Position numbers and translations under genes: made by a program
The notes under the pieces: generated by a model
The model's input: only the letters and a program-made list of their open reading frames with translations
Told to the model about the DNA's origin: nothing
Databases searched by the model: none
In this document: positions 19,801-54,804 of the stretch, piece by piece
Layout of the letters: each line of letters begins with the position of its first letter
Position numbering within the stretch: position 1 is the first letter of the stretch
From: Streptomyces sp. NBC_01210
GTDB lineage: Bacteria > Actinomycetota > Actinomycetes > Streptomycetales > Streptomycetaceae
Direction: 5' to 3'
Length of the DNA: 64,000 bases
NCBI RefSeq assembly: GCF_036010325.1
Contig: NZ_CP108549.1
Span: forward strand, 1,798,001-1,862,000

Positions 19801-20392
19801 GGTTCGTGCCGGTCGCCTCCAGAGCCCGCCGGGCACCGAGAATCGCAGCCTTCGTCTGCAGCAGATCCTGCGTCGTCTCCACCAGCAGCGCATCCGCACC
19901 ACCGGCGATCATGCCCTCCGCGTTCTGCTGGTAGGCGTCCCGCAGCTTCACATACGGCGCATGACCCAGCGTCGGCAGCTTCGTACCCGGCCCCATCGAA
20001 CCCAGCACCCACCGCTGCCGCCCACTCGACACCGTGAACTCGTCCGCCACCTCACGCGCGATCCGCGCCCCCGACTCCGACAGCTCGAAAACCCGCCCGG
20101 GAATGTCGTACTCCGCCAACGCAGCAAAATTTGCGCCGAACGTGTTCGTCTCCACGCAGTCCACCCCGACCGCGAAGTACTCCTCATGCACCGACCGCAC
20201 AATGTCCGGACGCGTCACATTGAGGACCTCGTTACACCCCTCGAGATTCTCAAAATCCTCAAGCGTCGGATCCTGCGCCTGCAACATCGTGCCCATCGCA
20301 CCATCAGCCACCACCACACGCGTGGCAAGCGCCTCACGGAGGGCGTCGATTCGGGTCCGGCTGTCGGCGGAGGGGGTCGGCAACGAGGCCAT
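16880..20392 (-). CDS. metH: cobalamin-dependent methionine synthase
   Basis: MetH moves the methyl group of 5-methyltetrahydrofolate to homocysteine through methylcobalamin, making methionine. The 1170-residue protein has all four modules. First is the homocysteine domain with its zinc cysteines (distal pair in LVGGCCGTTPEHLR), then the pterin domain (MAIGERTNANGSKKFREAM...). The cobalamin module follows with DVHDIGKN, where His747 is the lower axial ligand, and last is the C-terminal reactivation domain with its SAM-binding Arg region (YRGARFSLGYGACPDLEDR). The ATG at 20392 follows GGGAGCACATCC; the open frame upstream lies in the intergenic region and gylR antisense. I saw no convincing cobalamin riboswitch in the 240 bp upstream. 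The gene ends at a palindromic terminator. Confidence 0.97.
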   Translation of the reverse strand: MASLPTPSADSRTRIDALREALATRVVVADGAMGTMLQAQDPTLEDFENLEGCNEVLNVTRPDIVRSVHEEYFAVGVDCVETNTFGANFAALAEYDIPGRVFELSESGARIAREVADEFTVSSGRQRWVLGSMGPGTKLPTLGHAPYVKLRDAYQQNAEGMIAGGADALLVETTQDLLQTKAAILGARRALEATGTNLPVICSVTVETTGTMLLGSEIGAALTALEPLGIDMIGLNCATGPAEMSEHLRYLARHSRIPLSCMPNAGLPVLGRNGAHYPLSAGELADAQETFVREYGLSLVGGCCGTTPEHLRQVVERVRDLVPTRREPRPEPGAASLYQTVPFRQDTAYMAIGERTNANGSKKFREAMLEGRWDDCVEIARDQIREGAHMLDLCVDYVGRDGVADMEELAGRFATASTLPVVLDSTELDVLRAGLEKLGGRAVINSVNYEDGDGPESRFARVTALAREHGAALIALTIDEEGQARTVEHKVQVAERLIEDLTGNWGVLESDILIDTLTFTICTGQEESRKDGIATIGAIGELKRRHPEVQTTLGLSNISFGLNPAARVVLNSVFLDECVKAGLDSAIVHASKILPIARLKEEEVQVALDLIYDRRAEGYDPLQRLMELFEGVNMKSMKAGKAEELLALPLEERLKRRIIDGEKNGLEADLDEALVTRPALEIVNDTLLDGMKVVGELFGSGQMQLPFVLQSAEVMKNAVAYLEPHMEKSDADGKGTIVLATVRGDVHDIGKNLVDIILSNNGYNVVNLGIKQPVSAILEAAEEHRADVIGMSGLLVKSTVIMKENLQELNQRKLAADYPVILGGAALTRAYVEQDLHEIYEGEVRYARDAFEGLRLMDALIGIKRGIPGAVLPELKQRRVRATTNAVIEERPEEGAVRSDVAVDNPVPAPPFWGTRVIKGIQLKEYASWLDEGALFKGQWGLKQARTGDGPTYDELVESEGRPRLRGWLDQLHTRNLLEAAVVYGYFPCVSKGDDLILLNEDGSERTRFSFPRQRRGRRLCLADFFRPEESGERDVVGLQVVTVGSRIGEATAELFASDSYRDYLELHGLSVQLAEALAEYWHARVRAELGFAGEDPADVEDMFALKYRGARFSLGYGACPDLEDRAKIATLLEPERIGVQLSEEFQLHPEQSTDAIVIHHPEAKYFNAR

Positions 20393-20586
20393 GGATGTGC
20401 TCCCAGGGATGCGACGGCTGTCGGCTTTGCGTCTTCCGGTGGAAGGCGCACGGAGCCAGAGTAGCCGGGCGGACGGTTGTGGGCGCGGGCGTCCCACGGG
20501 GCGGACTCCTTCCTCCTTTCGGGCTCTGTGATGCCTTTTGGTCGTTGAGTACTCCCTCTGCGGTGACCAAGGTCGACATCGAGCGA

Positions 20587-34874: not shown

Positions 34875-36734
34875 GTGGCCACCACGCAGACCGAGCACGG
34901 ACAACGCACAGTCCACGAACGACAAGGAGCACGGCACCCGAAGGGAGCGGTCATAGCGATGACCGATCAGGCACTCCCAGGTCAGGGCCCCGGAACTGCG
35001 GGCCCTGGACCCGACGGAGCTGGATTCACCTATCAAGGAGCCGAGCCGGAGCTGATCGTCGTCGCACGGGCCGAGGCCCGGCTGCGCGCCGACACCCAAG
35101 GCGTACGGTCGGCCTCCGGGGCGGACATCTCCGCACTGAACATGTTCCTGAGCGACGAACAGCTCGCGCTGGAACCGGTGTTCGGCAGTGAGGAGCGGAC
35201 CCGGTCCGCTCTGCCTCCGCAGCCGGCGGGACCGGCAGGCGGCGGCCGGGGCACGCTGCCGGACCTCTCGCTCTTCTACCGTGTACGGGGCGGTGGGGAC
35301 CGGTCCGAGGAGCTCACCGCCCGGCTGGCCGCCCTCCCCGAGATCGAGACGGCGTACCTCAAGCCAGGCGCCGTACCCGCTCGGACGGCACCCCACGGCG
35401 GCACGGCGAAAGCCCGGCCCGAAGAGGCCAAGCGGCTCAAGGAGGGCGCACCCGCGACACCCGACTTCACCGGCCGCCAGGGCTACTTGGCGCCCGCGCC
35501 CGAGGGCGTGGACGCGTACTGGGCCTGGCAGCGGCCGGGCGGCTCCGGACAGAACGTCACCGTCGTCGATGTCGAAGGAGCCTGGCAGCTGAGCCATGAG
35601 GACCTGGCGGAGAAGCTCGCCGGCATCGTCGTCGGCAATCCGGTCCAGGACATCGCATGGCGCAACCACGGCACGGCGGTCCTCGGCATCATCGGCGGCG
35701 ACCGCGACGAGAAGGGGATCACCGGTATCGCTCCCGAGGCACTGACCGCGGCGGCGTCGTTCCAGGGCATCGGCTCCGCCGCGGCCATCCATGCCGCGGC
35801 CGAGCGTCTCACCCACGGCGACCTCCTCCTGATCGAACTCCACCGGCCGGGACCGCGGTTCGACCACGAGGTCCGCGACGACCAGCGCGGCTACATCGCG
35901 CTGGAGTGGTGGCCGGACGACTTCGCCGCGATCCGCTGGGCGACGTCGAAGGGCGTCCTGGTCGTGGAGGCGGCCGGCAACGGCGGCGAGAGCCTGGACG
36001 ACGCGGTGTACGAGCGCAGGCCGGACGCGTTCCCCGAGTGGTGGCGCAACCCCTTCAACCCGTCGAACCAGCCCTCCGGTGCGGTCCTCGTCGGCGCGGG
36101 CGCTCCCCCGCCCGGGACGCACGGCCGCGACCACGGTCCCGACCGCTCGCGGCTGGCGTTCTCCAACTACGGCGCGCGGCTGGACGCCCAGGGCTGGGGC
36201 CGCGAGGTCACCACGACCGGCGGCTTCTGGGACCGGGCGGGTGACCTGCAGGGCGGCGCGGAGGAGATCGCCTGGTACACGGACACCTTCTCCGGCACCT
36301 CCTCGGCCTCGCCGGTGGTGGTCGGCGCCCTGGCAGCCCTGCAGGGCATCCTCAAGGCCGCGCACCTCGCGCCGATGGGCCCCGAACAGGCCCGTGAGGT
36401 GCTGCGCAGGACCGGTTCGCCGCAGCAGGACGCTCCGGGGCGCCCGGCCTCGCAGCGGATCGGCAACCGCCCCGACATCAAGGCTGCGGTCACCGAGCTG
36501 GTGCCGTCGTCGGTCGGCTCGGGACAGGCAGAGCGGTACTGGGACGAACTGATGCCGTACCCGCGTGAACTTCCGCCGCGCCTGAGGCTGTTCGCGGCCG
36601 GCGCGTGGCGCAACCTCAACCACCCCGCCCCTGAAGTCCGCCAGGCGGTACATGCCGCCTTCGCGGGGGGCCGGCCGGACGTACGCGTCTGGTACTCGGA
36701 CGACGAGGTCGTGGGCCTGGTCGTCGCCGGATGA
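34875..36734 (+). CDS. subtilisin-like (S8) serine protease with a novel C-terminal domain
   Basis: This is a 619-residue S8-type protease. The catalytic triad is Asp232 (NVTVVDVEGAW), His265 (WRNHGTAVLG) and Ser476 (SGTSSASPVV), with the oxyanion region VVEAAGNGG. The N-terminal roughly 220 residues are a pro-region-like segment (LIVVARAEARLRADT...), and no signal peptide is visible, which is unusual for secreted subtilases. Residues 551-619 (QAERYWDELMPYP... to ...VVGLVVAG) form a domain that also ends the next gene's product. The start is GTG after GGAGGGAGCAGG; an ATG at 34959 is an alternative. The neighbouring Gln-rich gene follows by 24 bp, so the two form an operon. Confidence 0.85.
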   Translation: MATTQTEHGQRTVHERQGARHPKGAVIAMTDQALPGQGPGTAGPGPDGAGFTYQGAEPELIVVARAEARLRADTQGVRSASGADISALNMFLSDEQLALEPVFGSEERTRSALPPQPAGPAGGGRGTLPDLSLFYRVRGGGDRSEELTARLAALPEIETAYLKPGAVPARTAPHGGTAKARPEEAKRLKEGAPATPDFTGRQGYLAPAPEGVDAYWAWQRPGGSGQNVTVVDVEGAWQLSHEDLAEKLAGIVVGNPVQDIAWRNHGTAVLGIIGGDRDEKGITGIAPEALTAAASFQGIGSAAAIHAAAERLTHGDLLLIELHRPGPRFDHEVRDDQRGYIALEWWPDDFAAIRWATSKGVLVVEAAGNGGESLDDAVYERRPDAFPEWWRNPFNPSNQPSGAVLVGAGAPPPGTHGRDHGPDRSRLAFSNYGARLDAQGWGREVTTTGGFWDRAGDLQGGAEEIAWYTDTFSGTSSASPVVVGALAALQGILKAAHLAPMGPEQAREVLRRTGSPQQDAPGRPASQRIGNRPDIKAAVTELVPSSVGSGQAERYWDELMPYPRELPPRLRLFAAGAWRNLNHPAPEVRQAVHAAFAGGRPDVRVWYSDDEVVGLVVAG

Positions 36735-36758
36735 ATCGAAAGGGAAGGTGAACATCGC

Positions 36759-37283
36759 ATGAGCACCACCCCGCAGATGAACCCCAGCTCCATGAGTCAG
36801 CAGTACGGCCAGCAGCAGTACGCGCAGCAGCAGCACGGGCAGCAGCAGCCGTTCGGCCGGCTGCAGGGCGCAAGCACCTCTCCGCCCCCGCAGGGTCAGC
36901 AGATGAGCCAGCAGCCGCTCCAGCAGCTGCAGCAGCTCGGCCAGCAGCAGCCCTACCAGCAGCTGCTCCAGCAGCTCGGCCAGCAGAGCCAGCAGCAGAG
37001 CCAGCAGCAGGGCCAGGGCCAGCCGCTGATCCTGCCGAGCGCGATCGACAGCCAGGCCATCACCAGTGGTGTGGCCGAGCACTTCTGGGACGTCGTGACG
37101 CCCCTGCCCGGCCAGCCGGTCATCCTCTACCTGTTCATCCAGGGCGCCTGGCGTCAGCTGGTGAACCCGAACCAGATCACGCATGACGAGGTCCAGGAGG
37201 CGTTCGCCTTCGGGCAGCAGGTCATCGGGTTCTGGGACACCAACAACGCCGGTGTGCTCGCGGCGATCGTGGTGAACAAGTAG
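36759..37283 (+). CDS. Gln-rich protein sharing the protease's C-terminal domain
   Basis: This is a 174-residue protein of unknown function. Residues 14-88 are an extreme Gln-rich tract (runs such as YGQQQYAQQQHGQQQ and QQLGQQSQQQSQQQGQGQ), resembling prion-like or phase-separating sequence. Residues 101-174 (VAEHFWDVVTPLP..., LFIQGAWRQLVNP, ...VLAAIVVNK) align with the end of the upstream protease: AE-x2-aromatic-WD, P-x-P, LF-x2-GAWR-x-L, AF-x-G and a final hydrophobic VV. It starts at ATG after GGGAAGGTG, 24 bp downstream of the protease stop. It could be a partner, inhibitor or scaffold of the protease; that is inference. Confidence 0.75.
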   Translation: MSTTPQMNPSSMSQQYGQQQYAQQQHGQQQPFGRLQGASTSPPPQGQQMSQQPLQQLQQLGQQQPYQQLLQQLGQQSQQQSQQQGQGQPLILPSAIDSQAITSGVAEHFWDVVTPLPGQPVILYLFIQGAWRQLVNPNQITHDEVQEAFAFGQQVIGFWDTNNAGVLAAIVVNK

Positions 37284-54713: not shown

Positions 54714-54799
54714 GGTCCGGGTGGCGGAATGGCAGACGCGCTAGCTTGAGGTGCTAGTGCCCTTTATCGGGCGTGGGGGTTCAAGTCCCCCCTCGGACA
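54714..54799 (+). tRNA. tRNA-Leu (anticodon GAG)
   Basis: This is an 86-nt class II tRNA. The acceptor arm pairs GTCCGGG with CTCGGAC, with discriminator A. The anticodon stem CTAGC/GCTAG holds the loop TTGAGGT, giving anticodon GAG for CUC/CUU. A variable arm (GTGCCCTTTATCGGGCGT) and the T-arm GGGGG-TTCAAGT-CCCCC follow. The 3' CCA is not encoded. It ends close to an intrinsic terminator. Confidence 0.97.
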
Positions 54800-54804
54800 C
54801 AATC

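Follow-up and report, generated by a model that had tools for sequence, protein, structure and literature searches.

What does a free copy of a protease's own tail do in the gene next door? This question is raised by two adjoining genes of Streptomyces sp. NBC_01210, which encode an S8 (subtilisin-like) protease and a small companion that ends in the same kind of domain. The pair lies in a stretch of 64,000 nucleotides (nt) of contig NZ_CP108549.1 (assembly GCF_036010325.1, positions 1,798,001 to 1,862,000 of the forward strand), which was analyzed as a whole and is called the window here. Coordinates are window positions on the plus strand unless stated otherwise, and G and L numbers are our labels for genomes and loci. 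We propose that the pair consists of a leaderless pro-subtilisin and a dedicated companion, the latter being a free copy of the protease's own docking module, and we see this reading as about evenly balanced between right and wrong. The evidence that carries it is the homology of the two domains, the adjacency and co-occurrence of the genes, the intact catalytic triad, the lack of a hydrophobic leader and the recurrence of the layout with unrelated modules.

A protease and a companion with homologous C-terminal domains

By sequence comparison, the C-terminal tail domain of the protease (36507..36731) and the free-standing copy in the companion (37044..37280) are homologous at a level far above chance, as a sequence-only reading of this DNA had proposed. 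The last ~75 residues of the two proteins align with a Smith-Waterman score of 109, compared to 22.9 ± 4.2 and a maximum of 48 for 5,000 shuffles, and a search of the genome with the companion domain returned two matches, namely the companion itself and the protease tail (E 3.5e-8). The companion domain is predicted to be a small oligonucleotide/oligosaccharide-binding (OB)-like barrel of five strands and one helix, with a predicted local distance difference test (pLDDT) score of 91.7. Foldseek found no match for the shared domain at E 0.001 or better (best E not below 0.02), and searches of solved-structure sequences with the profiles of three modules, the Streptomyces domain and the 81-residue and GVQF modules introduced below, gave matches at E 0.24 or worse.

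The companion itself (174 residues, 36759..37283) was defined by its reading frame and a search for relatives. It is separated from the protease by a 24-nt gap (36735..36758), which holds a AAAGGGAAGG stretch resembling a ribosome-binding site before the companion ATG. The arm in front of its domain (36759..37043) contains 39 glutamines (Gln) in the first 94 residues, in line with the small Gln-rich partner 24 bp downstream that had been described from the letters alone. A LQQLQQLGQQQPYQQLLQQLG motif found in the arm by pattern search (36918..36980) is kept in most relatives; the pattern Q[LM]GQQQP[FY]..[LH][LFM] is present in 101 of 118 proteins including the query, with Streptomyces in every row that names an organism. 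The Gln fraction of the arm has a median of 0.40 across 117 companion relatives (range 0.24-0.47). The arm-bearing companion gave no match to an effector or core domain; Pfam returned a chance match to TFIIA only (E 0.6), and Pfam need not contain every family of effector-associated domain (EAD), a class to which we return below.

For the protease, the open frame reaches back to GTG 34875 and ends at 36734. We place the start most likely at ATG 34959, giving a protein of 591 residues (34959..36734), and consider GTG 34875 unlikely, because the listed Streptomyces relatives (n = 120) are 568-600 residues long, the sampled ones start with MTDQ or near variants, which are the residues encoded from ATG 34959, and a CGAaGGGAGCGG stretch of the ribosome-binding type is conserved right before this ATG in an alignment of the upstream DNA of 34 loci. 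The sole Pfam match of the protease is PF00082 (E 1.4e-12, 48 bits with a cut-off of 21.8), and it belongs to family S8. Catalytic Asp204 (35568..35570), His237 (35667..35669) and Ser448 (36300..36302) are present, as is Asn341 (all in 591-residue numbering). Asp, His, Asn and Ser are kept in 120/120 listed Streptomyces relatives, in 120/120 listed relatives of the wider family and in 78 loci of the 80-locus GTDB set described below; as these 78 loci had been preselected by their His and Ser motifs, only the Asp and Asn counts are a test there. Motifs for Asp, His and Ser are likewise present in the other two loci, L115 and L136. A match to the mycosins of type VII secretion (TIGR03921) reached 45.9 bits with a curated cut-off of 278.75, and this assignment was discarded.

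The protease N-terminus has a hydropathy of 0.55; among other proteins of the window, four secreted ones gave 1.94-2.67 and three cytosolic ones 0.59-1.07. On this simple hydropathy scan, which was used rather than SignalP, a value of 1.8 or more was reached by none of the 120 Streptomyces proteases and 120 wider relatives (both listed sets) and by none of the 118 companions, and was exceeded by all four secreted controls. The intact triad and the lack of a visible signal peptide that the sequence-only reading had pointed out were both borne out. Residues ~30-138 (35046..35372) form an N-terminal domain in the propeptide position, a free copy of which is encoded just upstream in many relatives with other tails; Pfam finds no match to Inhibitor_I9 in the window protease.

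The shared-domain profile matched 64 of 392 Streptomyces genomes, of which 58 had two matches, one had three and five had one. In 59 of the 59 genomes with several matches, these lie next to each other on the same strand, 301-626 nt apart, so that both checks set beforehand, the mutual match of the domains and the co-occurrence of the genes, were upheld. The genome with three matches (G864) has the home pair and, at another locus, a second protease of 61% identity, whose ATGA-overlapping companion has a Gln-rich arm and matches the shared domain weakly (17 bits). A companion without protease sequence occurred in 0/64 positive genomes, with the proviso that a strongly diverged companion could escape. 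The most sensitive profile scan, which does detect the weak G864 companion, found no second domain at E 1 in the stretches with a single match. In G743, the protease is cut down to its start and tail domain (L173:7281-7598, an open frame of 105 residues) and the companion is gone. The domain was present in 9/61 genomes of a single-sequence draw, in 10/200 genomes of a family draw, all of them with pairs, and in 3/396 genomes (1/236 genera) of a phylum draw. Because the family and phylum draws matched the window's genus only, the Streptomyces-type domain looks confined to Streptomyces at this profile sensitivity.

Exchangeable tails and free domain copies in the wider family

The query for the wider family was a relative that belongs to a different family within the phylum, is 58% identical in the core and has a tail of DUF346 repeats that is presumably lectin-like. 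It matched 4,056 proteins, and 120 of these were listed; 4 of the 120 lacked the core-end motif and were dropped before counting. In the listed relatives, the N-terminal domain and the catalytic core recur, while the part downstream varies and comprises KE-rich tails, tails of the type GVQF...WFT...WP, PF18885 (DUF5648), PF20328 (DUF6623), PF26607 repeats, PF01471, an 81-residue type and others. We take PF26607/DUF346 repeats, PF18885 and PF01471 to be glycan- or wall-binding families. A scan of GTDB genomes yielded 340 relatives, and the best 80 loci form the basis for all counts of tail types and free N-terminal domains. Tails of fewer than 40 residues were left out of the typing, and L115 and L136 were restored by hand to the type that matched them, their protease frame having escaped the motif filter.

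A second copy of the tail lies next downstream in 9/13 loci with GVQF tails (8/12 plus L115) and in 3/3 loci with 81-residue tails. For the Streptomyces type, a copy was found in 22/24 loci with a profile of tails only and in 24/24 with a profile that included companions, the latter figure being deduced from a sum of 37 loci in which both genes occur. The type profiles gave no cross-type matches except for L115 and L136, which belong to the matching type, and the remaining seven loci, with short or single tails, gave no tail-copy match. The GVQF loci without a companion (L093, L108, L127 and L163) continue for 9,961, 742, 310 and 4,697 nt after the protease, and because of these lengths contig ends do not clearly explain the missing genes. 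Outside the Streptomyces type, 10 of 12 companions start 8-51 nt past the protease stop; the distances are 143 and 401 nt in the two Chloroflexi, and the start in L095 was taken as the ATG 3 nt beyond the printed one. GVQF and 81-residue companions are almost bare domains without an arm. A KE-tailed protease of a Nitrospira metagenome-assembled genome (MAG) is followed by a 513-residue protein (L089:8244-9782) that combines a putidacin-type lectin region (below cut-off) with the same KE tail.

The three modules appear unrelated in sequence: hhalign, with shallow profiles, gave probabilities of 0.1% or less among the Streptomyces, 81-residue and GVQF domains. By eye, the 81-residue type has the same order of strands and helix as the Streptomyces domain. 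The non-Streptomyces-type companions came from Nonomuraea, Caballeronia, Pseudoduganella, Duganella and Blastococcus, from assemblies of Chloroflexi, Armatimonadetes and Acidobacteria and from a Methanosarcina MAG, where MAGs are possibly misbinned. A record from an isolate is that of Haloferax mediterranei, whose plasmid pHME505 encodes an S8 peptidase (WP_014732744.1) beside an 85-residue hypothetical protein (WP_004061042.1), with a GVQF domain in both. Among plasmids, there was one record for the GVQF companion and none for the 81-residue type, and none of the three modules had a relative in viral contigs. In 296 Actinomycetota genomes, GVQF was present in two, once as two adjacent copies and once as a single copy on a protease; the 81-residue type occurred in none of them, which shows nothing by itself.

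As a control, the last 90 residues of other genes from 55 GC-rich loci were matched against genes within 2 kb. Matches were found for 6/632 genes when those in the companion position were excluded, of which one turned out to be a companion, and for 17/656 when they were included, compared to 18/50 for the proteases in the same crude test. Two tandem genes that are 74% identical across their last 90 residues (L110:2966-6635) were also seen in this control.

A comparison of the neighbours of the loci revealed that a small gene directly upstream matches the protease's own N-terminal domain. With a profile of the protease N-terminal domain only (E <0.01), this gene was found directly upstream in 19/56 loci with non-Streptomyces tails, beside the protease on the opposite strand in L092, and nowhere else in the loci; L104, L110 and L163 were counted as directly upstream despite having no clean protease start. 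An iterated profile from the upstream genes placed it directly upstream in 42/56 loci (32 by an automatic rule and 10 by coordinates), plus L092, a figure that leans on position because the profile seeds were chosen by place. The iterated profile found no free N-terminal domain in the Streptomyces-type loci (0/24). Of the 12 loci of non-Streptomyces type that have a free tail, 9 have the free N-terminal domain as well, and in L097 the contig starts too near to judge. Pfam matched no inhibitor family, Inhibitor_I9 included, in four free N-terminal domains scanned, one of which matched ACT_4 at 5.6e-5, below its cut-off. As a third conserved neighbour we considered genes common to 14 pair loci; these resemble ABC-transporter proteins in their visible sequence and were taken as chance. 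In L086, L090, L096, L137 and L143, a second subtilisin-like gene adjoins the leaderless protease.

The interval between PAC2 and mshC

In the window, the genes are ordered PAC2, SMP-30-like (on the opposite strand), protease, companion, GH31 glycosidase and mshC. The flanking PAC2 gene matches PF09754 (E 1.5e-65) and the flanking mshC gene matches TIGR03447 over its cut-off; the SMP-30-like gene has an SGL match below cut-off. PAC2 and mshC flank the protease in 13/13 pair loci checked (the window, L048-L058 and L175) and likewise in G011, G684 and G743, and the SMP-like and GH31 genes come and go independently among these loci. The pair is missing from the site in 6/6 genomes without the domain, PAC2 adjoining mshC in three of them and only GH31 lying between the two in the other three. 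The earlier description of a block inserted between PAC2 and mshC is fair, this interval being a conserved home for the pair that stands empty in other species.

Two orphan Streptomyces proteases lie elsewhere. That of G018 is located at L047:7845-9632, and the related one of G823, which keeps the Asp, adjoins a similar 151-residue gene. Further away in the window, we noted a Streptomyces-metH RNA (RF03076, 106.5 bits) at 20390-20508 on the minus strand and a tRNA-Leu with anticodon GAG at 54715-54800 on the plus strand.

Possible working of the pair and comparison with known systems

If our proposal is correct, the companion would bind the protease via the shared module, either like with like or by both occupying one common site, and this binding would determine the place or the time of its action. 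A tether or a restraint may be supplied in Streptomyces by the Gln-rich arm and the motif conserved in it, and the outcome could be recruitment or restraint of the enzyme or competition with it. Because GVQF and 81-residue companions have little else, the recurring module must be of use almost on its own. The simplest reading would be that it docks to the protease, or to the site used by the protease tail itself, and this fits both the adjacency and the way in which the companion type follows the tail. From its place, the N-terminal domain would act as a propeptide or inhibitor. Action of the partner through like-with-like contact, as suggested by the sequence-only reading, gains weight in so far as the shared domain is concerned, because other phyla and an archaeon show the layout again with domains unrelated in sequence; direct binding is the part that we infer.

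The Streptomyces unit may also belong to a wider design that places an S8 protease between free copies of its accessory domains, the N-terminal domain upstream and the tail downstream. More speculatively, and with somewhat less than even confidence, we suggest a widespread, as yet unnamed kind of operon in bacteria and archaea, in which a leaderless S8 protease with a fixed N-terminal domain and core and an exchangeable tail is accompanied by single-domain copies of its own N-terminal domain upstream and its tail downstream. The free copies would assemble with or compete against the corresponding parts of the enzyme, the ratio of free domain to enzyme would set activity and placement, and a tail could be exchanged together with its free counterpart. 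The unit of Streptomyces would then be a derived form that lost the free N-terminal domain and gained the Gln-rich arm.

Several observations weigh against the docking proposal. For KE tails, the commonest type outside Streptomyces, a second copy exists in just 1/19 loci, where it sits on the 513-residue lectin-like protein of L089 and is not a free copy, and none was found for Roseibium-type (0/8, including L136), crystallin-like (by eye, 0/3), DUF5648 (0/2) and DUF6623 tails (0/1). Orphan proteases without an adjoining companion exist in 4/64 positive genomes: G011 and G684 have a triad-intact protease at the home site with no companion between it and mshC, and G018 and G823 have diverged proteases away from it, the triad being intact in G823 and Asp204 being changed to Ala in G018. 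The structure model of the full-length protease is poor (pLDDT 57.6). Finally, in the 37 Streptomyces loci with both genes, the mean pairwise identity is 56.5% for companion domains and 88.3% for tails, and a tail is 31.4% identical to its own companion and 31.0% to other companions, where a tight shared interface would lead one to expect more. By these identities, the two Streptomyces copies are old paralogues, with the companion evolving faster.

Across 11 GVQF loci, pairwise tail identities correlate with those of the companions at 0.86; in Streptomyces the value is 0.48. In a tree of 27 GVQF domains, companions separate from tails with 3 label changes, compared to a mean of 8.7 after shuffling; the tree is weakly supported, with 13/24 inner branches open. 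Exceptions are Haloferax and G105, in each of which the tail is sister to the companion of its own locus. The tree fits an old pairing with local re-duplication or homogenisation.

Other workings of the pair have to be considered. One that we regard as unlikely, yet worth keeping in view, follows PopC and PopD: the companion would retain the leaderless subtilisin until the companion is degraded, whereupon the protease would exit and cut a surface target. The layout is alike, with a subtilisin without signal peptide and then a small partner gene, and the family tails that we assume to be glycan- or wall-binding would suggest extracellular work. However, no shared domain is mentioned in the accessible text on PopC and PopD, and PopC is located in the periplasm of a Gram-negative cell. 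The free copies could also be brakes in trans, a free tail competing for the docking site on a target and a free N-terminal domain blocking the active site. The free N-terminal domain upstream in 42/56 other-tailed loci and the bare free tails downstream speak for such decoys or inhibitors; but Streptomyces-type loci are without the former (0/24), intact proteases persist without a companion at the home site in two genomes, and no Pfam inhibitor family was found in the four free N-terminal domains scanned, which makes this explanation rather improbable in our view. We give little credence to the companion as a substrate that the shared domain brings to the protease for cutting of a presumably disordered arm. 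The arm is long and of low complexity and the companion was not found without the protease, but GVQF and 81-residue companions have no arm to cut, and the arm motif is kept in 101/118 relatives.

A conflict or cell-death module, to which the sequence-only reading had linked the pair, now seems very unlikely. It would rely on coupling in the style of EADs, whose published principle places one copy of a domain on a core component and a second one in the gene next to it. Here, however, the second copy comes without an effector or core domain, and the two nearest genes on each side, to which the scan for NTPases was confined, are PAC2, SMP-like, GH31 and mshC. PADLOC did not assign both genes to one defence system, the protease scoring weakly as a generic subtilase with 17.6 bits and the companion not at all, and no viral relatives of the three modules were found. 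Because G011 and G684 keep an intact protease without a companion, a strict toxin-immunity pair is spoken against as well. There is only a slight chance that the companion is a passive leftover, that is, a tail duplication retained by chance or merely stabilising expression: it is missing in several genomes and companions diverge fast, but adjacency holds in 59/59 genomes with several matches and the layout is repeated with three sequence-unrelated modules.

Docking through the shared module is the reading that we prefer, and we regard the pair as a variant of the operon-controlled subtilisin, a kind already known. A literature search, with subscription papers mostly outside its reach, found no description of the pair or its layout. 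With family S8 (PF00082), the window protease shares the catalytic domain and the triad, but its type has no visible leader, its tails are exchangeable and copies of its accessory domains lie next door. Compared to the B subunits of AB5 toxins and other small OB-fold proteins, the companion domain is 8-16% identical in the 13 best rows, with a Foldseek E not below 0.02 and a Z in the range that possibly means only a common arrangement, and the companion has no signal peptide. The recurring layout, an enzyme flanked by its own non-catalytic domains with a downstream copy whose type changes along with the tail, would amount to a simple and general means by which a leaderless protease is controlled or placed, and several small families of 'hypothetical proteins' would gain testable functions.

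The closest case in terms of working, by its layout, is that of Myxococcus xanthus, where, according to the accessible text, PopD forms a complex with PopC and inhibits its secretion in non-starving cells, and popD starts directly after popC (PMC6434023, PMC4320627). PopC, too, is a leaderless subtilisin with a small partner next in the operon; the shared domain of the Streptomyces pair is a difference as far as that text goes. The layout described here may offer a frame for regulated proteases of the PopC/PopD kind. The closest architectural precedent is provided by the EADs, small non-enzymatic domains that are fused to one protein and found again in an adjacent gene, with homotypic contact proposed in the text accessible to us (eLife 2020;9:e52696, PMC7159879). 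Like these, the domain has one copy on the protease and another in the adjacent companion; in contrast to them, the second copy is bare or carried on a Gln-rich arm without a core or effector domain, and Pfam names no EAD. The layout offers a direct test of like-with-like control beyond the NTPase-centred systems in which the idea arose.

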